Of a DNA stretch of 39,715 nt, positions 1,544 through 27,880 are shown piece after piece. Origin of the DNA: an uncultured Paraprevotella sp. (GTDB lineage: Bacteria; Bacteroidota; Bacteroidia; Bacteroidales; Bacteroidaceae); the NCBI GenBank assembly GCA_944320775.1, contig CALUIV010000028.1:1-39715 (forward strand), read 5' to 3'. The translations under genes and the position numbers were made by a program. Each line of letters begins with the position of its first letter. The stretch's first letter is position 1. The notes below the pieces were generated by a model, which searched no databases, was not told the origin of the DNA, and saw only the letters and a list, made by a program, of their open reading frames with translations.

Positions 1544-1576
1544 TATAATGAATTACTACTTTTGTCTGCTAAACAA

Positions 1577-1610
1577 AAACGGGACGTATCCGTATGGATG
1601 CGTCCCGTTT
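1577..1610 (-). terminator. Terminator of the FAS1/SusCD operon
   Basis: The arms AAACGGGACG (1577-1586) and CGTCCCGTTT (1601-1610) are extended by ATCC/GGAT around a 4-nt loop with one mismatch. On the minus strand a T-rich tract follows immediately. It lies about 30 bp beyond the stop of the last SusD gene and closes the seven-gene operon. Confidence 0.9.
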
Positions 1611-1640
1611 ATATTATGAAATGATTTACTTTTCAAATGC

Positions 1641-3632
1641 TTATTTATAAGCAGGGAGTTCAAAATACCAGTTCTTGGTGTCGAGCAGTTTGTTGTACAA
1701 AGTCTGGTATTCCGGAGTTTGTGTATAATCAACATTGACGTCACCGGTGTCACCTCTGCGGGCAATCTTGTCGGCTAACCATTCTGCACCGTTTGCTCTA
1801 CGGTTGGCTACGCGCAACAAGTCTGTGAAGCGGTTACCTTCAAAGGCTGTTTCCAATGCCAATTCGTCTACGATCAACTCTTCAACAGCTGTGATGGTGT
1901 CTTCCTGAACGTAACTGTCTTTCTTTGGCAATTTAGCATTGACCATACGCTTGTAAGTATAAATCGTATCCTTCAGACCATCAATCGCACCACAACCTTT
2001 TGCATGCACACCGACAACATTGATGTCTTCGCCGCTACCGTTTGTGAATTCCGTAGTGAATTCTAGGTATGGAGTATTTTGAGCCAATTTGAATTCACTT
2101 TCGTTGATGTAATAACAGTTTTTATTCTGAGTGTCATAATAAGTACTGTCTTTCATCGGATATTCGATTTCGCCTGTTTCTTCATTTTCCGTACCAGGTT
2201 GTGATTTGTCTGGAACCTGTACCGTTGTGTAAACCGGAAGATATTCACGACACAAACCGTCTTTCAGGATGGCAAATGCATAAGATGGGAAACCTGCACG
2301 GTTAATCGCTTCAGCAAAGCGCAACCATACCAATGATTTACGGTAAATGACAGGATAGGTGTAGCTAAAACTATAGTTAGGGCACTGTTTGATAACGAAG
2401 TATCCGTAGTCTCCTATTTCATCCAATGCTCCCTGACGGGCATCTCCTGCTCCTTCGTAGTATTCGGCTTCGTTCAGCTGTTCATCGAAAACAACATAGC
2501 TTTGTGCCTTACATAAAGTCCAGAACTGGTTTGAACCGGTTACTTCTTTCATCTCTGGATTCAAGGATACAGATACGGAAGCTGATGTACTGGTTTCTGT
2601 ATCTTCCGTAGAATTTTCATCACCACCGGTTGTGCTGATTCTGGATGAAGTGCTCCAACCAAATACGTTGCAAACGCCAGTCAGGATATTTCCATACAAC
2701 TTATTTCCCGCACTTGGAATAACAGTAATAACTTCGTTAGTTGTACTAGGTTTGTCTGTTTGGACAAACTGACTTGAATTCAAGTTATAAATATACCGTT
2801 CAGAAGAATTTCCGTCTATAACCGTTGTTGCTTTTACTATGCCCGCAAAAAACGGAGGCAAGAAGCCCTTCGTTGCTTTCAAGTAGTCATAATAACATTG
2901 AGCTGCTTTTGCATAATCTTCCTGAGTCTTGGCACTGGTCAGATAAATATCACCCATGACAAGGCGTACCGGCATCATGGTCAGTTCAGAATGAATGTCA
3001 ACTGCACCGTTGTTATAAGAACCGTAAGAAGGATAAGGTGTGTCTACGAACTTTTCCAATGTCGGAATCAGCTTTTCTGCAATATTATCCTTGTTGATCT
3101 TGTTTTTCTCTTTGCTGAAATCGAAATTATTCACGAATTCCAGTGAGGTGAGGGGTTCCGTGTAATACGGAACCTCCTTGTAATTGTTGACGAGCTGCAG
3201 ATAGGTCCATGCGCGGATGGCAGAAACCTGAGCATACTCCTTAATCATGATCTTTTGGCCTGTACTGGTTGCCATGGTATCGGCATTTGCCAGATAGTTG
3301 TTACAGTTGTTGATTACGGCATAGTAATCTTTTACTTTCAAATAGCGGCAGTCACCATCCTGAGGATTCTCGAAATTGGCGATGGCATAAATTGAATCGG
3401 TAACTTTTGAAGTTGTGGCAACCAGATCACCACGTACTTCTCCAAGGATAACCTGTCTTTCTGCTATGTTCTGAAGGCATTTCTGGATACCCCAGTAGGT
3501 ATAAAGCGTATCCTGTGCCGGAATATATACTTTACGGTCTGAATTTGTGGTCAGCATGTCTTCACAAGATGAAAAACCGCATCCCAAACCCATTCCAAGC
3601 AATAGTATGCTGATAATTGATTTATTTTTCAT
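1641..3632 (-). CDS. SusD/RagB-family surface lipoprotein (SusD-B)
   Basis: Substrate-capturing lipoprotein that forms the lid of a SusC TonB-dependent channel at the outer membrane. It has a lipoprotein signal with Cys23 in FSSC followed by ED, consistent with surface export. Typical SusD features are an N-terminal helical segment with YWGIQKCLQNIAERQ, a TPR-like region with IRAWTYLQLVNNYKEVPYYTEP-like sequence near 140-160, and a C-terminal LALETAFEGNRFTDLLRVANRR block equivalent to the family's ALELAFEG-R--DL-R motif. At 663 residues it is longer than the usual 500-600, with a Ser/Thr/Glu-rich insert in the middle. It starts 12 nt after SusC-B and is the last gene of the operon. The ligand cannot be told from sequence. 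Confidence 0.9.
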   Translation of the reverse strand: MKNKSIISILLLGMGLGCGFSSCEDMLTTNSDRKVYIPAQDTLYTYWGIQKCLQNIAERQVILGEVRGDLVATTSKVTDSIYAIANFENPQDGDCRYLKVKDYYAVINNCNNYLANADTMATSTGQKIMIKEYAQVSAIRAWTYLQLVNNYKEVPYYTEPLTSLEFVNNFDFSKEKNKINKDNIAEKLIPTLEKFVDTPYPSYGSYNNGAVDIHSELTMMPVRLVMGDIYLTSAKTQEDYAKAAQCYYDYLKATKGFLPPFFAGIVKATTVIDGNSSERYIYNLNSSQFVQTDKPSTTNEVITVIPSAGNKLYGNILTGVCNVFGWSTSSRISTTGGDENSTEDTETSTSASVSVSLNPEMKEVTGSNQFWTLCKAQSYVVFDEQLNEAEYYEGAGDARQGALDEIGDYGYFVIKQCPNYSFSYTYPVIYRKSLVWLRFAEAINRAGFPSYAFAILKDGLCREYLPVYTTVQVPDKSQPGTENEETGEIEYPMKDSTYYDTQNKNCYYINESEFKLAQNTPYLEFTTEFTNGSGEDINVVGVHAKGCGAIDGLKDTIYTYKRMVNAKLPKKDSYVQEDTITAVEELIVDELALETAFEGNRFTDLLRVANRRANGAEWLADKIARRGDTGDVNVDYTQTPEYQTLYNKLLDTKNWYFELPAYK

Positions 3633-3644
3633 TTTTGTATGTTT

Positions 3645-6600
3645 TTACAAGTTAATAGAAACACCGATGTTGAAACTACGTGTCAAAGGCAACATGCCGT
3701 TGTCAATACCTTGGTATAGGATATTGTTGGCTGCTGAGATTTCAGGATCTGTACCTAAGTATTTAGTCAAAGTAAATACATCGTTGGCCTCACCCCAAAT
3801 CTTGATGCCCTGCAACCAGGTAGCAGAAACCGGGATATCGTAAGTAAGACGGATGTTTTTCAGTTTCAGATAAGAACCGTCCTCAATCCAACGGTCAGAG
3901 AAGCGTTCGTTGTTTCTCCAGTCTTCGCTCAGTGTGCTGCATGCTTTCGGCATATCTGTCTGCTGACCTTCGTAAGTCCAACGGTTTACAACAGCTGTTG
4001 TCTGATTGTAGAAGTTGTTACCACTTTCAAGTTTAGAACGTTGATAGTTGTAAACGTCATTACCCAAAGAATATTTGAAGTTTACATCCAAAGTCAGTCT
4101 CTTATAAGAAAGAGAAGTGTGGATGTTACCATATATACTTGGGTTCGGGTCACCGATAACAACCTTATCAGCTTCGTTGATGACACCGTCACCATTCTGG
4201 TCTACAAAATGAACATCACCAGCCTGGAAGTTCTTGTAGGCTTCGTCTGCATTTGTCAATCCGGTCGGATATTTTAAGTATTCTTTTTCCTGAGTAGTCG
4301 GATTGGTGTAGCATTTTGCTTCTTCATCGCTAGCAAATACACCCTTGGTTTCATAACCATAGAATACACCGGCTGCATGACCTACTGCCGTCAGGATGTT
4401 GTCTTCGCCATATACCGAAGTGGTGTAACCATTGATTCGTTCCGTTACATTTCCGTTAACGTCTTTCAGGATGATTTCGTCACTTGATGGCAATGCTGTG
4501 ATTTCGTTCTTGTAGCTACCTACAGAAGCACCCAATTGCCATTTCCAGTTCGGACGGTTTATCAAAATTGCATTCGCGTTGATTTCAAAACCTTTGTTTT
4601 CCATGGCACCATTGTTGGTCCAATATTCATCCAAACCAGTCATGTAGCTTACTTTTTCTTTAACCAGCAAGTTGTCTGTTTTGCTCATAAACAAATTGAT
4701 GCCAGCCTGTAAGCGGTTGTTCAGGAAGCTTCCGTCAAGTCCGATGTTGTACTGAGTAGTTGTTTCCCACTGGATCTGTGGGTTCTCCACATTTTCCATT
4801 ACCAGACCGATTGCTTCTTTCAGATATTTCTGAGAGCCCCAGTAGGTACGTGCCGCATAATAATCAATGTTGTCGTTTCCAGTCTGATCAACACCAGCCG
4901 TGAGTTTCAGGTAGTTTACACCCTTGCCACCTTTGAACCAAGATTCAGATGAAATCAACCAACCTAATTGCAATGACGGGAAAACACCCCAGCTTACACC
5001 GCACATCTGGAATCCGTCGCGTGTGTTGTTTCCAAAACGTGAAGAAGCTTGCATGGCTACAGATGCCTGAGCAAAGTAGCGGTTCATGAAACTATAATCG
5101 GCATTAGCATAGTAAGCCATATCAATCCAGTTGTCATTGGTTCCGTTATACTGAACGAACTGTCTGCTGTAATTCAGAATCGGCATCTTGTCGTTTGTAT
5201 TGTTGTAACCTTTCTGGAAACTGTAAGAATATGAGTAGTTATTGTATCGCCAACCTCCAAAGACGTTGATGTCATGGGCACCGTAGTTGTTTCCCCACTC
5301 AATACGCAAATCGTTATTGATCGTAGTCTGTTTGGTGAACTGTGATTTCAAAACACTCGTCACACTACCTAAATTTTCCAATGCGTATGGTGATGTACCG
5401 TTCAGTGGCAAATAGTACTTCTCGTTGTTTCGGCTCAATGCATAATTAAACCGATCTGAAATGGAGAGTTGTTTGGTGATTTGCCATTTTGGCATTACAT
5501 TCAAGTTGAACTGGGTTAATTCCGCATAGTTCTTCTCTACACCTTTTCCATTCTCAAGAATCCAATACGGGTTACTCAATACGGTATTTTCACCAAATCC
5601 AGAAGCATAGTTGAATGGATTATTGATGTTTGGAGATGAATACAAACTTTCATCAGCTGCATATTTACCGGCATAAATCTTATTCTGATGCAATTTTCCG
5701 TCTTCACCGATATAGTATCCGTATTTGCTCAGGAATGGAGTCTGTACCAATCCCAATACATTAGGAGCTGCGATGTTCTGATCGCTATAGCTTTCAGCCC
5801 AACCGTTGTCCAATACATTGTAAGCCATACGGGTATAAGCGATATCCAAAGCCGTACTTAAATTTTTAGCGATATTGATATCAGTATTAAAACGTAAGTT
5901 CAGACGGTTGAAGTCGTTATTCTTGGCTGCTGAATTTGCCTGTGAATATCCAAGTGACAGGTTATACATAGCAACCTCATCACCACCTTCAACGCTTACC
6001 TTATAGTTTTGGGTCATGGTTGTGCGGTACATTTCCTCCGACCAGTCCGTGTTGTTGTGGAACATCGGATACCAGAAATAGTTCGGATCTTCGTTCAGGA
6101 ATGGAATCTGGCTTAAAGACGAAACGGTAGAGCCTGTTGAACCCAAGAGGTCACCCAGATAAGAACGGAACTGATCACCATCCATCATATTAATGGTTTC
6201 CGGTTTCAGTACGACGCCACCATAGATGTTGACATTGATCTTGGTAGCCATACTCTTACCGCGTTTGGTATTGATGATGATAACACCATTTGCACCTTTG
6301 GCACCATAAATAGCTGTTCCATTCTTCAAGATTTGGATACTTTCAATATCTTCAGGGTCGATACCGGCAAGAACAGGATTCAGATAACCAACATGTAAGC
6401 TGGTACGTCCTTCCTGAGCATCAATCATGTTACCATCCAAAATAATCAATGGTTGGGCGTTTGAATTGATTGTATGGATACCACGGATTGTCATATAGGC
6501 ACCCTGAGCTGGAGTTCCAGTACGGTTAATGCTGTGAACGTCACCGGCCAGTTTATTCTGGATTTCAGTTTCCAGACTAAGGGCACTTGATACATTCGGA

Positions 6601-7049
6601 CGTGTTTCTGCTTTAGCCGTAATCGTTGTTCCATCTTCATAGAAGCCTTTGAATTTATTGGAATAAAGCATACCATCCATGCTTCCAGACTTCTTAATAG
6701 GGATTTGAATCGGATTATAATCCGGGGCGTCAACAAATAAGGCGTGTACAAATACCGGGACTTCTACTTTGTAGCTTCCGTCTTCTTCTGTCAAAGTTGA
6801 ATAGGCCGGATTGTTCAGTGCCTGAATACGTACACCGCTCATCGGCTGTTTTGTGGCTGCATCATAAATTTTGCCACTTACTGATTTCATTTTGTATTTC
6901 GGAGCGGCCTTTTCTGCTGTTTGAGTTGCGGCAACTTTACTTTCACCTTCTTCCTGCGCCATCAGGTTATTTGTTCCCGATAACACGAAGAGACAAACGC
7001 TGGCTCTCAGCACCGATTGTATAAAATTGTTGCTTAAATTCTTTTTCAT
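3645..7049 (-). CDS. SusC/RagA-family TonB-dependent outer-membrane transporter (SusC-B)
   Basis: TonB-linked 22-strand barrel importer working with the SusD-B lipoprotein. A signal peptide (about 1-31, cut after LMA) is followed by a carboxypeptidase-regulatory-like domain (about 55-120) and a plug domain (about 150-265) with MTIRGIHTINSNAQPLIILDG and ILKNGTAIYGAKGANGVI. The rest is barrel, with a Ca-site-like DQNGDGVINEAD loop and a C-terminal strand ending in aromatic/hydrophobic residues. At 1134 residues it is normal for SusC. It lacks a clear DEVVV-type TonB box between the first two domains, unlike SusC-A, and has a 20-residue Gln/Glu/Ala-rich stretch after the signal peptide. It lies 28 nt downstream of a FAS1 gene. 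Confidence 0.93.
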   Translation of the reverse strand: MKKNLSNNFIQSVLRASVCLFVLSGTNNLMAQEEGESKVAATQTAEKAAPKYKMKSVSGKIYDAATKQPMSGVRIQALNNPAYSTLTEEDGSYKVEVPVFVHALFVDAPDYNPIQIPIKKSGSMDGMLYSNKFKGFYEDGTTITAKAETRPNVSSALSLETEIQNKLAGDVHSINRTGTPAQGAYMTIRGIHTINSNAQPLIILDGNMIDAQEGRTSLHVGYLNPVLAGIDPEDIESIQILKNGTAIYGAKGANGVIIINTKRGKSMATKINVNIYGGVVLKPETINMMDGDQFRSYLGDLLGSTGSTVSSLSQIPFLNEDPNYFWYPMFHNNTDWSEEMYRTTMTQNYKVSVEGGDEVAMYNLSLGYSQANSAAKNNDFNRLNLRFNTDINIAKNLSTALDIAYTRMAYNVLDNGWAESYSDQNIAAPNVLGLVQTPFLSKYGYYIGEDGKLHQNKIYAGKYAADESLYSSPNINNPFNYASGFGENTVLSNPYWILENGKGVEKNYAELTQFNLNVMPKWQITKQLSISDRFNYALSRNNEKYYLPLNGTSPYALENLGSVTSVLKSQFTKQTTINNDLRIEWGNNYGAHDINVFGGWRYNNYSYSYSFQKGYNNTNDKMPILNYSRQFVQYNGTNDNWIDMAYYANADYSFMNRYFAQASVAMQASSRFGNNTRDGFQMCGVSWGVFPSLQLGWLISSESWFKGGKGVNYLKLTAGVDQTGNDNIDYYAARTYWGSQKYLKEAIGLVMENVENPQIQWETTTQYNIGLDGSFLNNRLQAGINLFMSKTDNLLVKEKVSYMTGLDEYWTNNGAMENKGFEINANAILINRPNWKWQLGASVGSYKNEITALPSSDEIILKDVNGNVTERINGYTTSVYGEDNILTAVGHAAGVFYGYETKGVFASDEEAKCYTNPTTQEKEYLKYPTGLTNADEAYKNFQAGDVHFVDQNGDGVINEADKVVIGDPNPSIYGNIHTSLSYKRLTLDVNFKYSLGNDVYNYQRSKLESGNNFYNQTTAVVNRWTYEGQQTDMPKACSTLSEDWRNNERFSDRWIEDGSYLKLKNIRLTYDIPVSATWLQGIKIWGEANDVFTLTKYLGTDPEISAANNILYQGIDNGMLPLTRSFNIGVSINL

Positions 7050-7077
7050 CGTCTTCTTATTTTAGTTAGCAAGAACA

Positions 7078-8808
7078 TTATTTTTCTTTTGTTTTCAAGA
7101 TAATCTTATCCAAATACATTACGTTGGAGAATTTTCCGTTCAAGATTTCCGGACGGCTTGCAGCTGTAGTCAGTGTAATCGTCGGATAAGCATTCTTCAC
7201 GCCTTTATAAGCGATTGGGAATTCGAAATCTTCATAGAGTAGAATCGTATCAACGCGATTGATATCGTTTTGCAATGTTCCTGTATTGGCTTTCTTTTCA
7301 GTTGTAGCTGTTTCTTTGTCGTAGTAGCTCAATGTAGCTTTGAATTTAGTCGGAACAGCCGTTTCTGTGATGTTTGCCGTATCGGCAACAATGATATTTG
7401 TTGGCAGCATGACAGCATAAATATCATATTTGCCAGACAGTACATCCGGAATACGGTAGGCCAGTGTTGTATTGTCACTGATCGCTTTCGGACGTGCATA
7501 CATAAACATATCTTCGCTTACAGTTCCGGCAATATTTGGATTACGACGGTTTTTGACAATTACAGTTGAACCATGATTGGTTGTTTTTGAGTTTAGTCCA
7601 TCTTCGTAAAGATCAAAATAACTTTCACCTTCAATTTCGATGTCCGGCATATAGCTTTCTGATGGTGTGTAGTTGAAGTTGTCTACGATATAAGCGTAAC
7701 CATTACTCAAAGTAACATAGCTCTTTCCATCGAAAATATCGTTGCAGACCGGTGCGTAGATGTATCTGTTGGTTGTGGTGCGCAATGAATCTGTTCTACC
7801 AAAGTCATTAATGGTATAATGTCCTTGCATATTGGTGCTGAATACCAAATTATTCACAATAGCCATTTGTGTCTGGATATTTTGCATGGAGTCGATGTTA
7901 ACCTGAGTTCCTGCCTCTTCCTTCTTTACTTTGTTGCTGTAGGTGGTAGACATGTATTTGAACAAAGGTTTGATACGCTCATAAGCTTTATCCCAAGCGG
8001 CATCGGTCGGAATAACCATGGCAAACGAACTATCCTCGTTTTTCAAATTGGCATTAATTCCGTACCAAGTATTACCGTTCTTGTCGAACGAGTAATAGAA
8101 TAATTGGCTTTCGGTTGTCCATACAGTATCTACAATCAGAATACTTCCATCTACAACCGGACCAGTAGTACTGAGGTCTTCGTTGATGTAGGTCGTATCT
8201 CCTAAGGCCAAGTACTCTCTGATTTTTTTTGCATTATCTAATGTTTTCAGATATTCATAGATATTATCCAAGAATGGAACTGGGGTAGCGATGGTGTGTA
8301 GAATACCATTGCTAGCACCAATATTACTTTCGATCAGTTTTATACCTTTTAAGGTTGCATTACCGTTGTCGAAAAGATTCATTTTCGTATTCAACATGGT
8401 CAGTGAGTCGATACTGGTTCCTGTCAGGTTTTGGCTGAAGGTACAGATATGATTCTTAACGAAACGTTGTTGTACATCGTATTCATTTTCTGCCAACTCT
8501 GCCAAAATAGAATCTTTATTAAATGATTTTGGTGCCCATACGGTAAATTTACTGTTCGTAGACAGTAAATCTTTGAACGTCATATCTGACTTTTTAGTTT
8601 CAGAAGTATAGTAATGTGTTTTTTCCAATACTTCTGCAAAGTCAGCTAAATCTTTGTTTGCTTTGATGATTTCCCAAAGCGTTTCCTTAGCGACATTACT
8701 GTTTTCGTTATAATGATCTGCTATGGTGTCGGTACAGGCGGAGCAGCCTGCAATAATTACTGCTCCGATGATACCGTTGTTCATCCATTTTTTATTTTTC
8801 ATGTTCAT
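7078..8808 (-). CDS. FAS1 (fasciclin)-domain lipoprotein, two FAS1 plus C-terminal beta domain
   Basis: Predicted surface lipoprotein with lipobox IAGC near the N-terminus. Two FAS1-like modules are visible. The first has an FTVWAPKSF block (the family's TVFAPtd-aF motif) and ends at NGILHTIATPVPF. The second has AMVIPTDAAW and ends at NGYAYIVDNFNY. The last ~190 residues look like a beta-sandwich (YRIPDVLSGKYDIYAVMLP through VMYLDKIILK), as in ligand-binding jelly-roll modules; this is inference. FAS1 domains mediate adhesion to protein or glycan in other systems. Start: ATG at 8808 or 8802 gives a basic signal peptide; an in-frame ATG at 8832 overlaps the preceding stop and is less likely. 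Located 17 nt after the other two-FAS1 gene. Confidence 0.82.
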   Translation of the reverse strand: MNMKNKKWMNNGIIGAVIIAGCSACTDTIADHYNENSNVAKETLWEIIKANKDLADFAEVLEKTHYYTSETKKSDMTFKDLLSTNSKFTVWAPKSFNKDSILAELAENEYDVQQRFVKNHICTFSQNLTGTSIDSLTMLNTKMNLFDNGNATLKGIKLIESNIGASNGILHTIATPVPFLDNIYEYLKTLDNAKKIREYLALGDTTYINEDLSTTGPVVDGSILIVDTVWTTESQLFYYSFDKNGNTWYGINANLKNEDSSFAMVIPTDAAWDKAYERIKPLFKYMSTTYSNKVKKEEAGTQVNIDSMQNIQTQMAIVNNLVFSTNMQGHYTINDFGRTDSLRTTTNRYIYAPVCNDIFDGKSYVTLSNGYAYIVDNFNYTPSESYMPDIEIEGESYFDLYEDGLNSKTTNHGSTVIVKNRRNPNIAGTVSEDMFMYARPKAISDNTTLAYRIPDVLSGKYDIYAVMLPTNIIVADTANITETAVPTKFKATLSYYDKETATTEKKANTGTLQNDINRVDTILLYEDFEFPIAYKGVKNAYPTITLTTAASRPEILNGKFSNVMYLDKIILKTKEK

Positions 8809-8825
8809 AATTGTTGTTTTAATAT

Positions 8826-10982: not shown

Positions 10983-11001
10983 ATTTTGTCAGTTAATTTT
11001 G

Positions 11002-12762
11002 TTATTGTTTTGCTATGCTGCTTTCTTCGTCCCAAATTGGGTTTTGATTCAGGTTCGGATTTGCCTTAATTTCAGTTTCGTAAATTGGTGCGTAAAGCAC
11101 TTTGATGCCTTGTTTATATTTGTTTCGGGCTACATTTTGAGCAGAACCTGTATATTTGTTTTGTATCAATTCGAATGCTGCTTCTGAGTTATTTTCTTTA
11201 CGTAATGCATAGCGTACAACATCAAACCAACGCTTTCCTTCACCATAGAACTCACGGCGGCGTTCTCTCAAAATCAGACCCTCAACGGCATCTTGATTGG
11301 TGTAATTGTTTGCGTTTAACTTGTCTGCATTGTTCGTTGCTAATGGATTTGAACGGTAGTATACCTCTTCAACCAAGGCAAAAGCTTCGTTCAGTTGTTC
11401 TTGACTACCCAAACGGCAAAGCGCTTCTGCTTTCATTAACAGTACATCTGTAATTCTGTAGAAAATCCAATTGGCATTGGCTGATGTACGCCAACTGATT
11501 ACCGGTTTATTATTGTCGGTAGCCTGAGTATTATCTGCCAGTTTGTTCTGCTGTACACTTTGTGCCGCATATTTAACTACACTGTATTTTCCTTCTTCAT
11601 ACTGGTAGAATGTTTCCCAACGGCGAATGTCCGTCTTGTAGAATAATCCTCCGGATGTACCATCAACCTGAGATGCTGCGTTACCGATCAAATCAGAAGC
11701 AATGATGTTTCCTACCGTACCACTTTCACCTGTGGTTCTGTAGTAAGTAGTAACAGCTCCATTGTTGTTCTTTGTTCCGTCGAACTGCAATTCGAAAATG
11801 CTTTCTCTAGAATTCTTGCTACCAAAAATGTATCTGTATGCACCGTCTGTTAATGTAGAACCATCACGACCTTCATTGAGGTAAAGATGATAAGGATTAT
11901 TCTCATCCGTTCCAGAACCTGCTCCCGGACGGAATGAACCAGAGTTGTCTTCTCTGTATTCCTTGTCCATCTGTTGGATGACATAATCGCAATGCTCTAT
12001 ACATTTGCTATAGTCTGCATCTGCAGTAGCTTTGTCGGTAAGTTCCTGCATGGAAGCGCGCCACAAATAGATATCAGCCAAAATAGTATGTATGGCTTTG
12101 TCCGTAATCAAACCTTTGTTATCTGATGAATTTCCATAATCTTGGACCATATTCGTGGTACAAATGTACTCTAATTGGTTTACCAAAGTATCCAATACGG
12201 CCTTTTGTGAACTAGCTTTCGGGCGTGTTACTTCTGAATCGTCATTGATGGCATTCATTACTAAAGGAATACTGTCGAATGTACGTGTCAGATAGAAATA
12301 ATTCAATGCACGTAAACCATACATTTCGGCACGAATGGCTTCCCAGTCTCCTTGAGAGAAACTTAAGTCTTTCTTCAAAATTTCCGGTCCGTGTTGAATG
12401 ACTTTATTACAGTAGTTGATGGTGGCATAGAAACCTGACCAATCATAAAATGAATTTGTCGGTTTCAGATTGACATTCATCAAGTCCATCAAATTTTCGT
12501 CGGTTACATTAGTCTTCCGATCAAAGTTATCTGAACGGAATTCTCCCCAAATCATGTATTTCTTGATATTTCCATCAGAAATCATGTTCTTGTATGCCTC
12601 GTTACGGACGCTTTCCAAATCTTTTTTATCTTCCCAAAAGCTCTCTTCCACGATCTTATCTTTTGGATATAGCGTCAGCCAGTCGTTGCAAGAGGTTAGT
12701 GTAGCACCCATAGCTACGCAACCCAGCAGGGCAATATGCTTTATATTATATGTTTTTTTCAT
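11002..12762 (-). CDS. SusD/RagB-family surface lipoprotein (SusD-A)
   Basis: Partner lipoprotein of SusC-A, predicted to cap the transporter and bind substrate at the cell surface. Lipobox LTSC (Cys25) is followed by NDWLTLYPKD, the classic SusD start (C-x-D-L---P-D). Family signatures follow: FWEDKKDLESVRNEAY near 43-58, LRALNYFYLTRTFDSIPL near 147-165, a TPR-like LADIYLWRA, and a C-terminal LILRERRREFYGEGKRWFDVVRY block. The length of 586 residues is typical. It begins 12 nt after SusC-A. It is only distantly similar to SusD-B, so the two pairs probably recognise different ligands (inference). Confidence 0.94.
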   Translation of the reverse strand: MKKTYNIKHIALLGCVAMGATLTSCNDWLTLYPKDKIVEESFWEDKKDLESVRNEAYKNMISDGNIKKYMIWGEFRSDNFDRKTNVTDENLMDLMNVNLKPTNSFYDWSGFYATINYCNKVIQHGPEILKKDLSFSQGDWEAIRAEMYGLRALNYFYLTRTFDSIPLVMNAINDDSEVTRPKASSQKAVLDTLVNQLEYICTTNMVQDYGNSSDNKGLITDKAIHTILADIYLWRASMQELTDKATADADYSKCIEHCDYVIQQMDKEYREDNSGSFRPGAGSGTDENNPYHLYLNEGRDGSTLTDGAYRYIFGSKNSRESIFELQFDGTKNNNGAVTTYYRTTGESGTVGNIIASDLIGNAASQVDGTSGGLFYKTDIRRWETFYQYEEGKYSVVKYAAQSVQQNKLADNTQATDNNKPVISWRTSANANWIFYRITDVLLMKAEALCRLGSQEQLNEAFALVEEVYYRSNPLATNNADKLNANNYTNQDAVEGLILRERRREFYGEGKRWFDVVRYALRKENNSEAAFELIQNKYTGSAQNVARNKYKQGIKVLYAPIYETEIKANPNLNQNPIWDEESSIAKQ

Positions 12763-12774
12763 TGTCAGTTGATA

Positions 12775-15700
12775 TTAGAATCCTACATTTAAGCTTAAAG
12801 TAAATGATTTAGAACGTGGGGTTTTGTTTTCATCTTTAGCTTGTCCCCAACCGGATACTGGTATATCAGGATCTACACCTGTATATTTGCTCCATACCCA
12901 CAAGTTGTTGGCGGATGCAGACAAACGCAGACTCTTCAAACCGAATTTCTTCAAATTCTTCGTATCGAAGTTGTAGCCCAAACGCAAGTATTGGAAACGG
13001 AGGTAATCACCATCTTCAACGTAGCGGTCACTTGCCAAAGCATTATATGTTCTACCGCCAGCTGCACCTGAGTTCATAGCACGTGGAACTTGGGTGTCAT
13101 CACCGTTCTTACGCCATCTCCATTTCGTAGCCTGGCTTTGGTTGTTGTTTGTAAGCATGTCTTCTGCATACATACGGGCAAGATTAATAATCTGGTTACC
13201 CATACGGAAGTTGAATGAGGCGCTCAGGCTCCAGTTTCCATAGTAGAAGTCTACACCGAAACCTCCATTACAACTCGGGTTAGAGTTACCCAAATAAACA
13301 ATATCCAAAGCGTTGATCTGACCATCGTGATTAATATCTTCATAAATAGCATCACCACCCTGGAACTGATAGTTGGTTCCACCATAGTTGAAATACATCG
13401 GCAGAGGATTACCTTTGGAATCTGTAATGACATTACCGTTTGCATCATATGCAATCGGGCAGGTTCCGTTATCGCCACGTTGTAATGCTGCTGCTGCTGT
13501 GTTGATCTTCTCACCATTTGCAAAATATCCGGGTCTGTTTGGATCCAACTCACCATTAGCATAAGCGTTCTTAGATTCCTCAGTCAAGCCGTTGTGGTCG
13601 TAATCATATGCATAAACACCTTTGTAACGGAAACCATAGATAGAACCAAGAGCATTGCCAATCTGGATACGTCCTAAGTAGTTCTCATTAGCATAGTTAA
13701 ATTCGCTATTCAAACTTTCCAATACAGAAGCGTCCATTGCTTCAATTGTATTGAAGTTCTGAGAGATATTGGCACTCAGTTTCATGGCGAATTTTCCGAC
13801 TTTCGCGAACCGGGCGGTATTTGCATAAAGCTCCCAACCTTTGTTACGCATTGTACCTACGTTTTGGCTAGCCAATGTGCTATAACCGTTTGAAGAAGGA
13901 ATTGATACGTTGTTTACAACCAAGTCGGTTGTTTTCTTGTCGTAGATTTCCAATGCGAAGGTCAATAAATCATTCCATAAACCAAGGTTGAAACCTAAGT
14001 TCCACTGAGCATTCTTTTCCCAACGTAATGTAGCCAGACGCAAGTTTTCCGGTTTAATGGCTCCATGGTTGTTTCCATAGTAACCATCGTCGGCATAACG
14101 GTTGTACTGATCGTATCCACCGCCGACAACATTACCAACGATACCCCATCCTGGACGAACAGCCAACATAGACAACCAGCTGCGTGTCGGTTTCATGAAG
14201 TCTTCGTCACTGATATTCCAACGACCGGAAATACCCGGGAAGGTTCCGAATTTGTTACCTGCACCGAATGCTGTTCTACCATCGGTACGAACCGTTCCTG
14301 TAATGCTATATTTAGATTTATAAGAGTAGTGTACGGAGCCTACGTATGAAAGGCTTCTCCATTCTCCTGGATTAGAACTGATGTTCGTCAAATAAGCATC
14401 TACAGTTGGGTCTGTAAGACCTGAAGGAATACCGCGAGTTGCGATAGTCTGATCATTACTTGTTCCTGTAGTCATTTCGAAACGAGCCAATACGCTTACC
14501 GCATGATCTTCATTATTGAATTTAGGATAGAATGCCAAATCGTGACGAGTTGTCATTTGTAAGCTCTTGTATTCGTAGTTTGATGCACTATTGATACCAT
14601 CATACCATTCGTTACGTGTCAACGTAGCAGGGTAGTAGTCATTTCTACTGGTATTATATACCTGCAACTGTACGTCACCAGTATAGTTTAACTGAGTTTC
14701 ATCGCTTTCTTTACCTAAGAATTTGTACTCTACTGAGAACTGTGGAGTAATATTGAAGGTTTGTTCCCGTTTCCAGGCAAGGTTTGCAATTGCTACAGGG
14801 TTACCATTGGTGTACATATCGCTTAAGCTCTGTGAAGTACGGCCTTCTACACGTCCGGATACATCTGCAAGTGGAAGCATGTTGAAATACTGTCCGGTCA
14901 GTTGTGGATTATCACGGTCGTCATTGTATTCATAGATACTCATGTTTGGCATAGCTTTGTATGCACGTGCCAAGATATCATCATAGTTCTTCATGTTGTC
15001 TGTAAATGACAATGAGAAGTTAGATGAGAATTTGATACGGTCTGATACATAGTAGTCCAACGCCATACGGGTTGTGAAACGATCCAACTGCTGCTTGATG
15101 ATTGTTCCGGTTTCTTTATCATATCCGGCTGAAATACGGAATGTCGCTTTCTCACCACCACCGGTTAAAGTCAGGTAGTAGTTATGTGCCTGTCCAAACT
15201 GTTTGACCGCATCAACCCAATCTGTATTTTGGCTGTAGTTATTGTAAATATATGGGATTTCACGGTTATAATCCAACTCCAGCATGTTTGATGCGTTCGG
15301 ATTCTGTTGTGGGTTGAAGTAAGCTTCTTTCAACATCATGGTATAACCGTCACCGTCAAGCATTTTCATACCATCCGGTTGCCAGTTTCCTGTAAAACGG
15401 TATGAGAAATCTATACGGGTTTTACCGCGAGCACCACGACGCGTCTTGATATCAATCACACCGTTTGCACCTTTAGAACCCCAAATTGCTGTTGCAGAAG
15501 CATCTTTCAATACTTTAATTTCTGCAATATCTTCAGGGTTAATAGAAAGCAATGTAGAGAACTGTTCCTCATTGTCAAGGTCTTCGAAGTTGATTTCCTG
15601 TGCATTGTCCGGTAATTCAAAGATGTGACCGTCGAGTACGATCAATGGTTCGGCATTACCGTTGATGGTTGAAGTACCACGGATACGCATGGTTGTACCA

Positions 15701-16209
15701 GATCCCAAGTTACCAGAGTTGGCCACGATATCCAAACCGGCAATCTTACCCTGAAGGGCTTCATCGACAGACTCGAAAGAAAGTCCTTGCATTTCATCCA
15801 TGCTGAATGTCTGGGCTGCAACAGAAACTTCTCGTTCGGGGATAGCCAAACCATTGCTTATTACTTTTTTGTTTTCAGTGATAACTACTTCATCCAATGT
15901 CTTGGCATCGTCTTTCATTTTTACTTTGAAGACACTTTTGTTGCCAATTGCTTCAATATGTTCTTTAAAACCTACATAAGTTATTTTCAACTTATTTTTC
16001 GGATTCTTTATGGTCATGGTAAAATTACCATTCATATCCGTAACCGTAGCTGATACGATACGATTGTTGGCGTCAACTTCAACAACGTTCGCCATCATAA
16101 TTCCGCCGAAGTCATCCTCAACGGTACCTGAGATACGTCTTTGCTGCGCCATAGCCGTGCTTGTGATGAAGCAGACGGCGAATAGCAATAGATACTTTAT
16201 CTTATTCAT
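12775..16209 (-). CDS. SusC/RagA-family TonB-dependent outer-membrane transporter (SusC-A)
   Basis: Outer-membrane importer energised by TonB/ExbBD. A signal peptide (1-21, TAMA cut site) is followed by a carboxypeptidase-regulatory-like beta domain (about 24-100), a clear TonB box region KTLDEVVITENKK (104-115), and a plug with MRIRGTSTINGNAEPLIVLDG and VLKDASATAIWGSKGANGVIDI (about 175-260). The long barrel carries an INHDGQINALD calcium-like loop and ends in LSLNVGF. At 1144 residues it is full length. It follows the four-FAS1 gene by 8 nt and precedes its SusD by 12 nt, the usual SusC-SusD order. Substrate class is not deducible: SusCD-type systems import glycans, and the related RagAB imports oligopeptides. 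Confidence 0.95.
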   Translation of the reverse strand: MNKIKYLLLFAVCFITSTAMAQQRRISGTVEDDFGGIMMANVVEVDANNRIVSATVTDMNGNFTMTIKNPKNKLKITYVGFKEHIEAIGNKSVFKVKMKDDAKTLDEVVITENKKVISNGLAIPEREVSVAAQTFSMDEMQGLSFESVDEALQGKIAGLDIVANSGNLGSGTTMRIRGTSTINGNAEPLIVLDGHIFELPDNAQEINFEDLDNEEQFSTLLSINPEDIAEIKVLKDASATAIWGSKGANGVIDIKTRRGARGKTRIDFSYRFTGNWQPDGMKMLDGDGYTMMLKEAYFNPQQNPNASNMLELDYNREIPYIYNNYSQNTDWVDAVKQFGQAHNYYLTLTGGGEKATFRISAGYDKETGTIIKQQLDRFTTRMALDYYVSDRIKFSSNFSLSFTDNMKNYDDILARAYKAMPNMSIYEYNDDRDNPQLTGQYFNMLPLADVSGRVEGRTSQSLSDMYTNGNPVAIANLAWKREQTFNITPQFSVEYKFLGKESDETQLNYTGDVQLQVYNTSRNDYYPATLTRNEWYDGINSASNYEYKSLQMTTRHDLAFYPKFNNEDHAVSVLARFEMTTGTSNDQTIATRGIPSGLTDPTVDAYLTNISSNPGEWRSLSYVGSVHYSYKSKYSITGTVRTDGRTAFGAGNKFGTFPGISGRWNISDEDFMKPTRSWLSMLAVRPGWGIVGNVVGGGYDQYNRYADDGYYGNNHGAIKPENLRLATLRWEKNAQWNLGFNLGLWNDLLTFALEIYDKKTTDLVVNNVSIPSSNGYSTLASQNVGTMRNKGWELYANTARFAKVGKFAMKLSANISQNFNTIEAMDASVLESLNSEFNYANENYLGRIQIGNALGSIYGFRYKGVYAYDYDHNGLTEESKNAYANGELDPNRPGYFANGEKINTAAAALQRGDNGTCPIAYDANGNVITDSKGNPLPMYFNYGGTNYQFQGGDAIYEDINHDGQINALDIVYLGNSNPSCNGGFGVDFYYGNWSLSASFNFRMGNQIINLARMYAEDMLTNNNQSQATKWRWRKNGDDTQVPRAMNSGAAGGRTYNALASDRYVEDGDYLRFQYLRLGYNFDTKNLKKFGLKSLRLSASANNLWVWSKYTGVDPDIPVSGWGQAKDENKTPRSKSFTLSLNVGF

Positions 16210-16217
16210 GGTATTTT

Positions 16218-19196
16218 TTATTTGTTTTTAATTCTGAATTTAGCAGCTGTTTGTTTGGCAGTTTCCAAATTCCGCCAATATTTTTCAGCATATGAATTTT
16301 TGTAATCTTTTAAATCAGTATAGTGGAGTACACCGTTTACCTGATGAATTACAGCATAAGAAGAAGATTCAATCCTGCTTTCGGTCAGAGAAACATTGTT
16401 AGTTTGGTAATCTTTATTCGTGATATAGTCACGAGTCATTTTGTTTTTGATGCCAGTGACTTCACAATCATAAATCATACTTCCGTCTTCTCTTTCTTTG
16501 AATACTCTCAATTGACCGTTACCAGCAGTTGATTCAACACTTACGCTAACGAATTTTTTACCGTCGTCATCCAAAGTTGCTGTTTCGTATGAAGTAGCTT
16601 CAAAAGGAAGTTTGTCTGCGAATACAGAATTATCCTGGAAGTGTCCACGAACAAAGTTCAACAAACAACTAGCCATAGCTTTGGCAATTGGTTGGTACTT
16701 TTCGATATAATTTGGATCTTCGATATGTTCCTGTACGTAAGTTTCAATAGTTTCCCATGTTGGCAGATCGTTTTCGTCAATTGCTTTCTGAATAGCTTCA
16801 TTGGTTGGAGCATAAATCGTATAACGGTAGTTATTGAAGAAAGAAACATTATAATCCAAACCATTATTATTGATAAATACGTTGTATTTCTGGGCTTGTT
16901 TATCTTGTTCTTCATCTTCCAATTCAGAATCAATAATACCACAGTTTACCAACAGATCTGTATTCATACCAGAACATAAACTGTAGAACATGCTGTATGG
17001 ATTATTTTCCTGCTCGTTGTTATTTGACAGTACGTTTGAAACAGAGCGAACAGCTGCTGCAAGCGGAGCATCCAAGCAATAAGTCCATCCATTTACTTTA
17101 TTATATGGGATGGTTACACTTGAGTAAAGAACACCCGGGTTAGATGGTTGCGCTGTGTAGCCATTTAGTTCTTGTTCTACCTGCATAGCTCCCTGGAATT
17201 TCATGTTCATATCATCGCCACTTGCGTTTTTAACATGAATTGGGGCACCACTCTTACTGATGTAATATTCGTTACCTGATTTTACACCCTGAGTTTCTGT
17301 TTCACTATGTACAATGGTGTGGGTTTCCAGGATATCTTTCAAACGGTTAATCTTTTCTGTCTGGCTAACTGTTGTTGTACCTACAACAGGACCACCGATC
17401 AAACCGGTTGAGGCATCATAGATATACGGCTTACAATCTACAGGCATGTTACCTGCACCTTCTTTTTCTTTATATTCGAAAGCAAGAACACGGGGAGAGG
17501 TCTTTCCTGATAAGGACAACGGATCTACATAGTACTTCAGTGCATTGTCACTCGGTAATAATAAAGTAAACTTAGATCCCATAGCACGCAGATATGCATA
17601 ATAGTGGATATCCATTAAGTTGTTTTTACCATCCATACCGGAACCGTTGTAAATGGCAAATTTCATAATCAAGTTGTTCTTGCTGATAAATGCCGGTGAA
17701 GCAACGGATGCATAGTCTACAGGAGGATAAACCTTATTCATTAAGTAAAGAACACCATTATTGGCAATCTTAACTTCATTGATATTATCAATAGCTTCTT
17801 GCGGATTTTGGAACAAGTTATCGTTGGCCTGATCCAAAATCTGACCGAACTTACTTGGTACGCTATTGGTAAATGAACGTTGCATCAGGTTATTGATGAA
17901 AGAGTTGATTGTGTTCAACGGAATCATATCAATGTTGTGGAATAGATTTTCTTCCGTGTTGTCACGATCTCCATAAGTGTCAATCAAATCGCTACCTTCA
18001 CCACCCGGTAAGAAGTAGGCTTTCAAAACCTCGTCGGTCGGAACAAACATGGCAGCCATATCACCAGTTGCCGTAGCACCAGTAGAGTTGCTCTTGTACA
18101 TATTCCATCCCGGATCGAATTTTAAAACACCCATTAATGAAGAAGGAGTTAAATTATCCGGACCAACAGCTAATCTGTTATCTGTTGCAAATGTTCCTAT
18201 AGGATTTGTCCATTCAGAATAGTATTTCTTGACAAAAATGGAGTCTACAGGATTGTCTTTATGTAAAGTATTATAGTTATCCGTTACCGCTTTGTTGTAG
18301 AATGGGGCACTGAAACGATCCAAAATATGGCTGAAAATATCGGTCTTACCATTGGTACGGATAACTTCTGCCATATTTCCAGGTGGAATCAATACGCTGT
18401 CCAATACGTTAATATAACCGTTTTGGCAAGTAATGTCTTGCTTGATTACTTTATTAAAGTAGATGTGAGCATCGTTTGATGTTCTTTCTTTACCAGTCAG
18501 GATCTTGAAATCTTCATTGGTAACACCTGCCTTACTCATTTGCTCGCTAATGAAATAAACAAGCATAGGATTCGTGTTATCTGTTACCATGTAGATACCG
18601 CGTTTTTGAGTACCGTTAACATCGTAAGCTTTTTCTTCACGATAATACTTCCAATAATCTGTAGAAGTTGTGTCGTCAGATTGTGGAAGATTTTCCGGAG
18701 TAAAAAAAGTGATACTATCCGTCAGCTCGATAGAAGTCTCCTTACGCATGCTGGCGCCTTTTACAGGTGGATTTCCTTGTTCGCGAGGAAGCATTTCCAA
18801 AAGATAAGCGTTGTTGAGCATTGCTGCATGAACCAGAATCTTTTTCTGGGCCAAAGTCAACTTGTCGTAACTTGTTGCATTATGCCAGGCATAATCTTCG
18901 TCAGTGTTCACATTGCTTTTGTAGAATTTCTCAAAAGCTGCGTCGTCTGCAACGAATAAAGTCTTACTACCAGTGGTAGACAGAACCTCTTCAAGGCCTA
19001 ACTCATCAATCATTTTAACGAAATTGGTGTAGTTTCCTTTTTCCTTCAAGTAACCATAAATACTCGAACCGAGATAAGTCGGGGCTTCGTCGTCCAACTT
19101 ATATTCATCGGCGCAAGAGTAATTCAGGCCACAAGCTGCAAGCAGGCAAAATGCGAATGTTGCCTTTTTGCTGATTTTACTTAAACGGTCTTTCAT
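16218..19196 (-). CDS. Large lipoprotein with four FAS1 (fasciclin) domains
   Basis: First gene of the operon, 992 residues. The N-terminus is a lipoprotein signal with Cys28 (NYSC) followed by ADEYKLDDE, an acidic stretch like Bacteroidetes surface-export signals. Four FAS1-like repeats can be read: about 44-270 (TLFVADDAAF; NGYINVLDSVLIP), 282-492 (AAMFVPTDEVL; NGVLYLMNKVYPP), 500-720 (FTLLLPSDNAL) and 735-962 (YTIYAPTNEAI; VNGVLHYTDL). FAS1 folds bind proteins or sugars in adhesion proteins of many organisms. No enzymatic motif was seen. Its place at the head of a SusCD operon suggests a surface-exposed ligand-binding or adhesion role, possibly as an accessory subunit of the transporter (inference). 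Confidence 0.85.
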   Translation of the reverse strand: MKDRLSKISKKATFAFCLLAACGLNYSCADEYKLDDEAPTYLGSSIYGYLKEKGNYTNFVKMIDELGLEEVLSTTGSKTLFVADDAAFEKFYKSNVNTDEDYAWHNATSYDKLTLAQKKILVHAAMLNNAYLLEMLPREQGNPPVKGASMRKETSIELTDSITFFTPENLPQSDDTTSTDYWKYYREEKAYDVNGTQKRGIYMVTDNTNPMLVYFISEQMSKAGVTNEDFKILTGKERTSNDAHIYFNKVIKQDITCQNGYINVLDSVLIPPGNMAEVIRTNGKTDIFSHILDRFSAPFYNKAVTDNYNTLHKDNPVDSIFVKKYYSEWTNPIGTFATDNRLAVGPDNLTPSSLMGVLKFDPGWNMYKSNSTGATATGDMAAMFVPTDEVLKAYFLPGGEGSDLIDTYGDRDNTEENLFHNIDMIPLNTINSFINNLMQRSFTNSVPSKFGQILDQANDNLFQNPQEAIDNINEVKIANNGVLYLMNKVYPPVDYASVASPAFISKNNLIMKFAIYNGSGMDGKNNLMDIHYYAYLRAMGSKFTLLLPSDNALKYYVDPLSLSGKTSPRVLAFEYKEKEGAGNMPVDCKPYIYDASTGLIGGPVVGTTTVSQTEKINRLKDILETHTIVHSETETQGVKSGNEYYISKSGAPIHVKNASGDDMNMKFQGAMQVEQELNGYTAQPSNPGVLYSSVTIPYNKVNGWTYCLDAPLAAAVRSVSNVLSNNNEQENNPYSMFYSLCSGMNTDLLVNCGIIDSELEDEEQDKQAQKYNVFINNNGLDYNVSFFNNYRYTIYAPTNEAIQKAIDENDLPTWETIETYVQEHIEDPNYIEKYQPIAKAMASCLLNFVRGHFQDNSVFADKLPFEATSYETATLDDDGKKFVSVSVESTAGNGQLRVFKEREDGSMIYDCEVTGIKNKMTRDYITNKDYQTNNVSLTESRIESSSYAVIHQVNGVLHYTDLKDYKNSYAEKYWRNLETAKQTAAKFRIKNK

Positions 19197-19266
19197 ACAC
19201 TTTTAAATTGAAAATTTATTAATTATTTTGTTGTATCTTCTAATACGGTTTCTACATTCTCATCCA

Positions 19267-19274
19267 CAAATTTA
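19267..19274 (-). promoter_or_regulatory. Possible -7 box of the FAS1/SusCD operon
   Basis: TAAATTTG on the minus strand fits TAnnTTTG and would give a leader of about 65 nt. No TTTG -33 element is found at the expected spacing, so the promoter may be activator-dependent or read by another sigma factor. Confidence 0.35.
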
Positions 19275-19390
19275 ATAGTTTATATTGTTTAGCCCTTTTT
19301 TTACCTATTAATATATTCTCTTAATAGCATTATTTAACATTATACTTCTTTTAAGTGTTAAATTGGAATTGATTATTGGAGGGTAAAAGT

Positions 19391-22127: not shown

Positions 22128-22158
22128 TATGATAAAAAGATATTTTGTCTTTGTTGAC

Positions 22159-22166
22159 CAAATATA
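22159..22166 (-). promoter_or_regulatory. Possible -7 box for mrcA
   Basis: TATATTTG on the minus strand, 31 bp upstream of the mrcA start and in the gap after miaA, fits TAnnTTTG. No TTTG is found at -33, so support is weak. Confidence 0.3.
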
Positions 22167-22175
22167 CGGAAAAAA

Positions 22176-23087
22176 TTATGGGATTATCTTTTTTGAGATA
22201 AATTTTATGATTTCTTTATCTTGTTCCGGATGAAACCAGGTTATTTCAGGATCCCGTTTGAACCAGGTAATTTGTTTTCTGGCATAGTTTCTGCTGTTCT
22301 GTTTTATTTTTTCGATTGCTTGTTCCCAACTGCATAAGCCATCAATATATTGAAAAAGTTCTTTATAGCCTACTGTGTTCAATGCATTACAGTTTCTTAA
22401 TTCCTTAAAGGACAAGACTTCTTCATATAATCCTTCTTCTATCATAATATCGACTCTTTTGTTGATCCTTTCATACAGTTCCTCTCTAGGTCGTGTTAGC
22501 CCTATCTTTATGATATTAAAAGGTCTTTCTTTAATGGAATTAGTACGGAAAGAAGTATATGTCTTTCCTGTAAGATAGCAAATTTCGAGTGCATGCATTA
22601 CCCTTTTGGGATTCTTAAGATCTACGATTTTATAGTATTCAGGATCAAGGATTTTTAGCTCTTGAACTAACTGGTCCAGTCCTGCAGTTTCATAGCGTCT
22701 CATGACCATTTGGCGGGTTTCTTGATCGACGGTTGGAATGTCATCAATCCCTTTGCATATTGCATCAATATACATCATGCTTCCCCCTGTCAATAAAACG
22801 TTGTTTTGTTGTTTAAATAAATCATTAAGCAGCGCAAGGACATCGGATTCGTATTGTGCGGCACTATAATATGCATCTGGTGGAAGCGTTGCTACGAAAT
22901 AATGTGAAACACGTTTTCTTTGTTCAGGTGTTGGTGCTGCTGTTCCTATTGTGAGACCAGAATAGATTTGTCGCGAGTCAGCGTTAATTATAGGAGAATG
23001 TAAAAACTCAGCCAATGAAAGGCTGAGTTCTGTCTTACCAACTCCTGTTGGTCCTAAAAGGACAACAAGATTATTTTTTTTCTGCAT
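22176..23087 (-). CDS. miaA: tRNA dimethylallyltransferase
   Basis: Transfers a dimethylallyl group to N6 of A37 in tRNAs reading UNN codons. It has the MiaA P-loop GPTGVGKT (12-19), the conserved [11 protein letters not shown] segment (35-45), and the C-terminal [12 protein letters not shown] block that contacts tRNA. At 303 residues it is of normal length. It starts 3 nt after the pRiA4b-ORF3-like gene, so the two are almost certainly cotranscribed in the lpxD-lpxC/fabZ-lpxA series. Confidence 0.96.
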
Positions 23088-23090
23088 AGA

Positions 23091-23639: not shown

Positions 23640-23654
23640 ATGGGTAAATTTTTA

Positions 23655-24428: not shown

Positions 24429-24431
24429 ATA

Positions 24432-25817: not shown

Positions 25818-25822
25818 AGATT

Positions 25823-26872: not shown

Positions 26873-26985
26873 GTTCTTACGTTTGTTCTATACTAATTGT
26901 GCAAATATCGTAAAAAAAACAATATTAACCATGAAATTATGCTATAAATTCATGTCAATTGAATAACAATGGCGAAGAACATAAA

Positions 26986-27019
26986 AAAAATATCTGCAAA
27001 ATGACTTGCAGATATTTTT
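26986..27019 (-). terminator. Terminator after pyrF
   Basis: Perfect 14-bp inverted repeat (26986-26999 with 27006-27019) around a 6-nt loop, with a run of eight Ts on the minus strand. It lies 24 bp past the pyrF stop, ending the purM-prfA-pyrF operon before the lpxD promoter region. Confidence 0.92.
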
Positions 27020-27043
27020 GGAATTTCTAATCAAGATTTGATT

Positions 27044-27868: not shown

Positions 27869-27880
27869 ACACGTTCTGGT

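Follow-up and report, generated by a model that had tools for sequence, protein, structure and literature searches.

The window, which is the whole stretch of 39,715 nucleotides (nt) analysed here (contig CALUIV010000028.1, from an uncultured Paraprevotella sp.), carries a row of seven genes for two different SusC-SusD pairs and three lipoproteins built of FAS1 domains. The row, here called the cassette, comprises seven consecutive open reading frames (ORFs) on the minus strand between positions 1641 and 19196, in the transcription order FAS_A, SusC1, SusD1, FAS_B, FAS_C, SusC2 and SusD2 (Table 1). This enzyme-free double SusCD row with its constant FAS1 lipoproteins is real, conserved and, as far as the open-access literature goes, undescribed. 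The cassette probably specifies a cell-surface machine for the capture and import of oligosaccharides, in which the FAS1 lipoproteins would be the glycan binders and the enzymes would be supplied in trans. SusCD systems are usually typed by their adjoining enzymes, and an enzyme-based scheme would miss this unit. An earlier note on the same DNA had described a same-strand row of seven genes with a terminator at its end, two SusC proteins, two SusD proteins and three FAS1 lipoproteins, and all of this was confirmed.

Table 1. Genes and associated elements of the cassette (window positions)
Feature	Position	Strand	Description
FAS_A	16218..19196	-	992-aa FAS1-repeat lipoprotein; four repeats by motif spacing, two Pfam stretches
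SusC1	12775..16209	-	1144-aa outer membrane transporter, TonB-linked
SusD1	11002..12762	-	586-aa lipoprotein, SusD/RagB family
FAS_B	8826..10982	-	718-aa lipoprotein; two FAS1 domains, plus a beta domain at the C-terminus similar to carbohydrate-binding modules
FAS_C	7078..8832	-	584-aa lipoprotein; FAS1 domains (the second putative), plus a beta domain at the C-terminus similar to carbohydrate-binding modules
SusC2	3645..7049	-	1134-aa outer membrane transporter, TonB-linked
SusD2	1641..3632	-	663-aa divergent SusD-like lipoprotein; orthologous to SusD2 of other cassettes
Intrinsic terminator 3' of SusD2	1570..1612	-	Hairpin and U-rich tail
Candidate -7 element TAAATTTG	19267..19274	-	70 nt ahead of FAS_A; weak

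The genes of the row are separated by 8, 12, 19, -7, 28 and 12 nt. The range of 8-28 nt given earlier holds at five junctions, and at the remaining one if a later ATG of FAS_C is taken as the start; with the first ATG, FAS_B and FAS_C overlap by 7 nt. This spacing suggests that all seven genes are transcribed as a single message. The hairpin behind SusD2 has a folding energy of -23.4 kcal/mol (z -6.4), none of 200 shuffled sequences being equally stable, and is absent from the list of a simple terminator scan. Scans of the window for promoter patterns fixed no promoter ahead of FAS_A. The candidate TAAATTTG was compared with TANNTTTG, which we take to be the -7 consensus of Bacteroides promoters, and is weak because the pattern is about as frequent in the window as expected by chance (54 matches vs 45).

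The Pfam scan of the seven proteins found a TonB plug in two, SusD families in two, Fasciclin above the cut-off in three, and an enzyme family above the cut-off in none; an endo-enzyme of the kind present in utilisomes is likewise absent from the operon by Pfam. The earlier statement that there is no degradative enzyme is true of the row in every place where it was found, and not always of its surroundings. SusC1 and SusC2 match the NCBIfam model OMP_RagA_SusC (TIGR04056) with 686 and 578 bits, the cut-off being 368. SusD1 matches SusD_RagB (PF07980) with 96 bits; SusD2, with 22 bits, falls just below the cut-off of 23.1, stands after a SusC and is a lipoprotein. When scored against solved chains, SusC1 and SusC2 reach 310 and 279 bits with 8aa4, 217 and 177 with the levan SusC, and 130 and 162 with RagA. 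Both are nearer to 8aa4, which belongs to the dextran utilisome (PMC7618045, in the accessible part of that paper), and to the levan SusC than to RagA, contrary to what defines a RagAB-type importer, although apart from 8aa4 the margin of SusC2 over RagA is small. In a tree of the cassette SusCs, all SusC2 proteins form one clade (support 1.0) separate from SusC1; the tree is rooted inside the SusC1 group, so that SusC1 is printed as non-monophyletic, and the SusC2 clade separates the two groups.

Fasciclin (PF02469), with a cut-off of 22 bits, is matched by the three FAS proteins with 46, 45 and 27 bits. In a comparison of profiles the first FAS1 domain was confirmed for FAS_A and FAS_B, whereas the later repeats gave only fragments, which is why the count of four repeats in FAS_A rests on motif spacing. 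AlphaFold2 models were obtained for FAS_B (32 sequences, mean predicted local distance difference test score, pLDDT, 84.8) and FAS_C (17 sequences, mean pLDDT 80.4). The best structural matches of the FAS_B model are fasciclin I, TGFBIp and periostin, followed at lower rank by the carbohydrate-binding modules (CBMs) CBM4, CBM6 and CBM11 and by CBM-bearing enzymes; the FAS_C model matches the same three proteins together with modules of CBM22, CBM16 and CBM35. The match lists come without residue ranges, and secondary structure together with alignment lengths of about 200 columns would place the CBM-like match in the C-terminal all-beta domain. No CBM family was found by Pfam in FAS_B or FAS_C up to E 0.1; the modelled C-terminal domain thus resembles CBMs in its predicted fold, without membership of a CBM family. 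Tandem FAS1 domains are what the cassette proteins have in common with fasciclin I, TGFBIp and periostin, from which they differ in being bacterial surface lipoproteins of a transporter operon and, in FAS_B and FAS_C, in the CBM-like C-terminal domain. Among 40 cassettes a lipobox is present in 39 FAS_A, 40 SusD1, 40 FAS_B, 37 FAS_C and 40 SusD2 proteins, and at least two acidic residues follow soon after it in 36, 21, 34, 32 and 32 of them, respectively. Acidic residues behind the lipobox are a mark of surface lipoproteins (PMC12578637, accessible part).

In a survey of gene neighbourhoods, of the kind proposed in the earlier note, the FAS1 genes proved to be conserved beside these SusCD pairs, so that the first outcome named there as refuting did not arise. 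An alignment search of genome contigs with FAS_B returned at least 92 relatives, from which 80 loci were kept (numbered with L below, as genomes are with G and contigs with C), and further stretches were fetched from other genomes. Of the 47 cassette loci outside the window among the matches listed, 38 hold the complete row in unchanged order (28 from the FAS_B search). Seven of the nine incomplete loci are cut at contig ends; L038 has its SusC2 split between two frames, and L085 has an antisense ORF called at the expected position of SusD2. The last two defects look like frame or ORF-calling breaks: since the caller retains the longest ORF, a gene may be masked by an antisense one, as probably happened to SusD2 of L085. 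This count and the analysis of protein distances exclude L118, which shares its contig with L085, and L120-L128, which are short copies of later stretches. In 40 loci the gaps between cassette neighbours are at most 177 nt, with one exception of 414 nt, and the row therefore contains no inserted gene.

Whole rows are carried by Paraprevotella, Prevotella, Paludibacter and Muribaculaceae metagenome-assembled genomes (MAGs) and by Leeuwenhoekiella nanhaiensis. The closest row among the matches listed is that of a Paraprevotella MAG (L068; SusC1 81% and FAS_A 51% identical). Within the Bacteroidaceae, FAS_A was matched in 59 of 101 genomes, in some by fragments, with up to seven hits per genome. 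In a sample of the phylum the FAS_A profile matches at least 8 of 395 genomes, the window's own included, a lower bound because two candidates were scored per genome. Eight stretches from seven other genomes of this sample all (8/8) hold the seven genes in order, and the order is thus kept between genomes whose SusC1 is only 36-38%, and whose FAS proteins are 18-24%, identical to those of the window. Its recurrence in such distant genomes rules out that the row is a neighbourhood formed by chance or peculiar to one genome. Across 40 cassettes the seven proteins have pairwise distances that correlate with r of 0.77-0.96; such correlations are also expected from vertical descent alone. Taken with the fixed order they show that the cassette is a single genetic unit, inherited as one.

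In the open-access literature, with subscription papers and databases of polysaccharide utilisation loci lying outside the search, no paper was found that links FAS1 lipoproteins with SusCD, and an unremarked mention may exist. Nor was the locus found there as one already characterised with a known substrate, a finding that the earlier note had named as fatal to its proposal. RagAB, which the earlier note had mentioned, consists of one pair and is not known to have FAS1 proteins. RagAB of Porphyromonas gingivalis (PMC12578637) is similar in being a SusCD-type importer without a glycanase, and its RagA scores below the glycan SusCs. Bacteroides thetaiotaomicron has utilisomes for levan and for dextran (PMC7618045), which contain the nearest solved SusCs and share with the cassette the combination of SusCD with further surface lipoproteins; they have one SusCD pair and a surface endo-glycanase, whereas the window has two pairs, three FAS1 lipoproteins and no enzyme, in a putative complex. 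An abundant SusCDE complex of Flavobacterium johnsoniae whose function is not known (Fjoh_0403-0405, PMC12611786) also joins SusCD to a further surface lipoprotein, but has one pair and one extra lipoprotein, for which the accessible text names no FAS1; the likeness is one of description only. SusC/D clusters of F. johnsoniae are reported to be induced by pectin (PMC8056085), and may or may not include a FAS1 row.

The surface binding-and-uptake unit of the earlier note, in which FAS1 lipoproteins take the place of glycan-binding ones, is supported as regards binding and uptake. Import of glycans is favoured because of the CBM-like domains, the SusC scores with 8aa4 and the levan SusC, and the carbohydrate-active neighbours. 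We infer a complex, its ligand, inward transport and enzymes in trans as follows. Two TonB-driven SusCD importers would be made together with three surface lipoproteins whose bodies consist of FAS1 domains, the CBM-like C-terminal domain of FAS_B and FAS_C being the likely ligand-binding head. The FAS lipoproteins would be the glycan binders of this complex and might dock on the rims of SusC, as in utilisomes. Such a unit, having no surface enzyme, would import pieces already cut, and enzymes encoded elsewhere would finish them; in the window's genome, clusters of glycosidase genes on contigs C8 and C1 are candidates for this role. In the C8 cluster (L181, 4256-19297) seven genes were scanned, giving GH3, GH43-CBM6, GH120, GH31 and three without a Pfam match, and the remaining genes were judged by eye. 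The genome has four GH43 matches, and in the stretches fetched around those on C8 and C1 the cassette profiles find neither SusC nor SusD. Glycosidase clusters without SusCD fit an organism that feeds on oligosaccharides already cut and has its enzymes in trans, and name no sugar. The genome has five SusD_RagB matches, two of them inside the window (one below the cut-off); the three other SusD loci have one SusCD pair each. The cassette may be central to the feeding of the organism because it supplies two of only five such matches. If this function is correct, bacterial FAS1 domains gain a concrete role in nutrient import that can be put to the test.

The fixed pairing raises the question of whether two SusCD importers work in one complex. 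A bolder arrangement, tentative and on balance improbable, is a double utilisome in which all seven products form one supercomplex, the two different importers being joined by FAS1 lipoproteins that would serve both as a shared scaffold and as a ligand-presenting surface. If true, it would be an old Bacteroidota device for importing oligosaccharides cut by others, and FAS1, known as an adhesion fold, would have been turned into a constant transporter subunit.

The likely cargo of the oligosaccharide importer is plant cell-wall oligosaccharides. For the wider group, rhamnogalacturonan is the most plausible single candidate; for the window's genome it is conjectural. The clues come from neighbouring genes; those scanned one by one were picked by eye, mostly from 104 flanking ORFs, and do not give a rate. 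Ten downstream neighbours included GH43-CBM6, GH2, GH8, GH28, FG-GAP, three CBM_4_9 (one above the cut-off) and two without a match; ten others were KduI, a short-chain dehydrogenase, DUF4861, GH2, an FGGY kinase, GH115_C, LutB, a LUD protein, a GDSL-SASA esterase and one without a match; a further ten were GDSL, GH95, GH43, an alpha-L-fucosidase, an oligogalacturonate-lyase match, an esterase, PATR, PD40, a cupin and one without a match. In G033 a cassette is flanked on either side by RGI_lyase matches; in G072 and in G053 such a match lies upstream of a cassette. In genus g9 the divergent cassettes L137-L140, complete or cut by the stretch fetched, stand in enzyme loci: that of L137 adjoins a PL11 rhamnogalacturonan lyase, GH28, GH2 and GDSL esterases, and that of L138 a hybrid two-component system (HTCS) regulator. 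With these enzymes and the regulator alongside, the g9 cassette is like rhamnogalacturonan-type loci, whereas the window locus differs from them in having no enzyme or regulator and in lying in a genome without an RGI_lyase or GH28 match. L138, L139 and L140 also carry, ahead of FAS_A, a protein of 530-564 amino acids without a Pfam match (scanned in L138, 12259-13851), possibly an eighth part, where L137 has an ORF of 188 amino acids.

Genomes with FAS_A more often contain RGI_lyase (41/59 vs 12/42 of the others, P 5.6e-5) and GH10 (39/59 vs 13/42, P 6e-4), with no significant difference for GH28 (31/59 vs 17/42, P 0.31), all uncorrected for descent. The RGI_lyase figure uses all 53 matching genomes. 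A genome table made from a shorter list (41/59 vs 7/42) undercounts; that list, which served for the test of positions, left out most rows below the family cut-off and all rows of G043. Within 10 kb of a cassette, RGI_lyase was found at 6 (3.7 expected), GH28 at 4 (1.8) and GH10 at 3 (2.3). In this test the cassette end was set 17.5 kb from the start of FAS_A, partial FAS_A hits were counted (115 in total) and kinship of genomes was ignored.

Several observations weigh against the oligosaccharide importer and its plant cell-wall cargo. Within 5 kb, 6 cassettes have an RGI_lyase where 2.7 would be expected (P 0.056), and g9 accounts for three of them; GH28 is found at 1 (1.3 expected) and GH10 at 3 (1.7). 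The co-occurrence with FAS_A is not specific to pectin genes. In the window's genome, which is 91% complete, RGI_lyase, GH10 and GH28 (the last at E 1e-20) are all unmatched, and many cassettes are placed among housekeeping genes. By CBM length, TM-scores of FAS_B and FAS_C to CBMs are only 0.35-0.56, the FAS_B list also holds Cry toxins and gingipain adhesin domains, and the FAS_C list holds Eph receptors, jelly rolls being binders of proteins too. Pectin as a firm substrate is not carried by the data, given the weak linkage and the missing RGI_lyase, GH28 and GH10 matches in the window's genome.

A RagAB-like system might instead take up peptides or a protein of host or microbial origin, its FAS1 lipoproteins serving as adhesins that bind proteins. 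In favour of this rival, the top structural matches of FAS_B and FAS_C are the protein-binding fasciclin I, TGFBIp and periostin, the RagA score of SusC2 nearly equals its levan SusC score, and a FAS_B paralogue on contig C3 adjoins a gene for an S37 peptidase. The CBM-like matches of both FAS proteins and the dextran SusC as best score for both SusCs argue otherwise, and no chosen neighbour matched a peptidase family alone (one esterase/hydrolase with several matches includes Peptidase_S9). Protein or peptide cargo, as the earlier note had suggested, is therefore unlikely, the SusC scores lying above those of RagA and the enzymes among the chosen neighbours being mostly carbohydrate-active. 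It is just as unlikely that the cassette is chiefly an attachment apparatus, whose FAS1 lipoproteins would anchor the cell on plant fibre, on mucus or on other cells, with uptake secondary: attachment alone needs no importer, and two complete ones are constant in the unit, even though animals and plants use FAS1 as an adhesion fold (PMC6032426, accessible part) and many cassettes have no adjoining enzymes.

The seven genes might also be two separate SusCD systems that share only a promoter, each with its own FAS1 lipoprotein or lipoproteins and its own ligand, as the separate groups of SusC1 and SusC2 and the placement of FAS_A ahead of the first pair and of FAS_B and FAS_C ahead of the second would allow. 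The pairs are never apart in the 38 complete loci, which makes such a division rather improbable; SusCD pairs without FAS genes would be missed because the searches began from FAS_A and FAS_B. Very improbable is a housekeeping machine of the outer membrane, for export or assembly like the enlarged beta-barrel assembly machinery (BAM) complex of Bacteroidota, instead of nutrient uptake. A stable place by lpxDCA-miaA-PBP1a and other housekeeping genes in several genera speaks for it, but FAS_A is absent from 42 of the 101 family genomes and from most of the phylum sample, is multiplied to as many as seven hits per genome elsewhere, and in g9 belongs to a cassette within an enzyme locus; FAS1 does not occur in the main text of two papers on the BAM complex.

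The chromosomal setting of the cassette recurs. The window cassette is flanked by trpS downstream and by PBP1a upstream, followed by miaA, a 182-aa gene, lpxA, lpxC/fabZ and lpxD; the block ahead of the cassette (19683-28990) comprises prfA, a 274-aa gene, lpxD, lpxC/fabZ, lpxA, the 182-aa gene, miaA and PBP1a. Among the scanned flanks trpS, PBP1a, miaA, lpxA, lpxC and lpxD there is no linked regulator (HTCS, sigma or anti-sigma factor). With no enzyme in or beside the cassette, the window does not hold a polysaccharide utilisation locus in the sense of SusCD plus carbohydrate-active enzymes, a combination found only at some cassettes of other genomes. Parts of the prfA-PBP1a block border cassettes in other genera on either side: upstream PBP1a in L057, miaA in L051 and prfA-lpxD-lpxC-miaA in L157, and downstream lpxD-lpxC-lpxA-182-miaA-PBP1a in L156, L160, L162 and L164. 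Other cassettes stand beside panB (L092, L149, L174), or beside ileS (L065, L150, L152), and some have a PD40 gene on one side and an amidase-mlaD pair on the other (L089, L153/L154, L165/L166). Flanked by such recurring neighbours, many cassettes occupy stable chromosomal places outside enzyme loci.

FAS_B-like genes also occur outside cassettes, at 39 loci, many of which (L096 onward except L115) share little beyond the FAS1 domain; some genomes have more than 10 FAS_B matches. In L037, L040, L045, L049, L056, L064, L084 and others they stand without SusCD, and some of these adjoin very large secreted proteins (alpha-2-macroglobulin-like, CotH/LTD or Dockerin-bearing). Eight neighbours of non-cassette genes were scanned (Golvesin_C/amidase, S37 peptidase, GH2, alpha-2-macroglobulin, GH43, CotH/LTD, Dockerin and one without a match) and point to no clear substrate. 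The paralogue in the window's own genome (L115, contig C3, 13162-15315; 57% identity) is a lone gene without SusCD, beside the S37 peptidase gene and GH2. In Pedobacter nutrimenti (L099, 3271-13242) and in a member of the Prolixibacteraceae (L111, 4172-11140), FAS1 proteins are found beside SusC in other gene arrangements, behind genes that by eye resemble sigma and anti-sigma factors.

At the edge of the window, positions 1-178 hold by eye two near-identical tRNA-Val copies in tandem; ARAGORN calls only the one at 103-178 (anticodon tac), and the first copy touches the window end.

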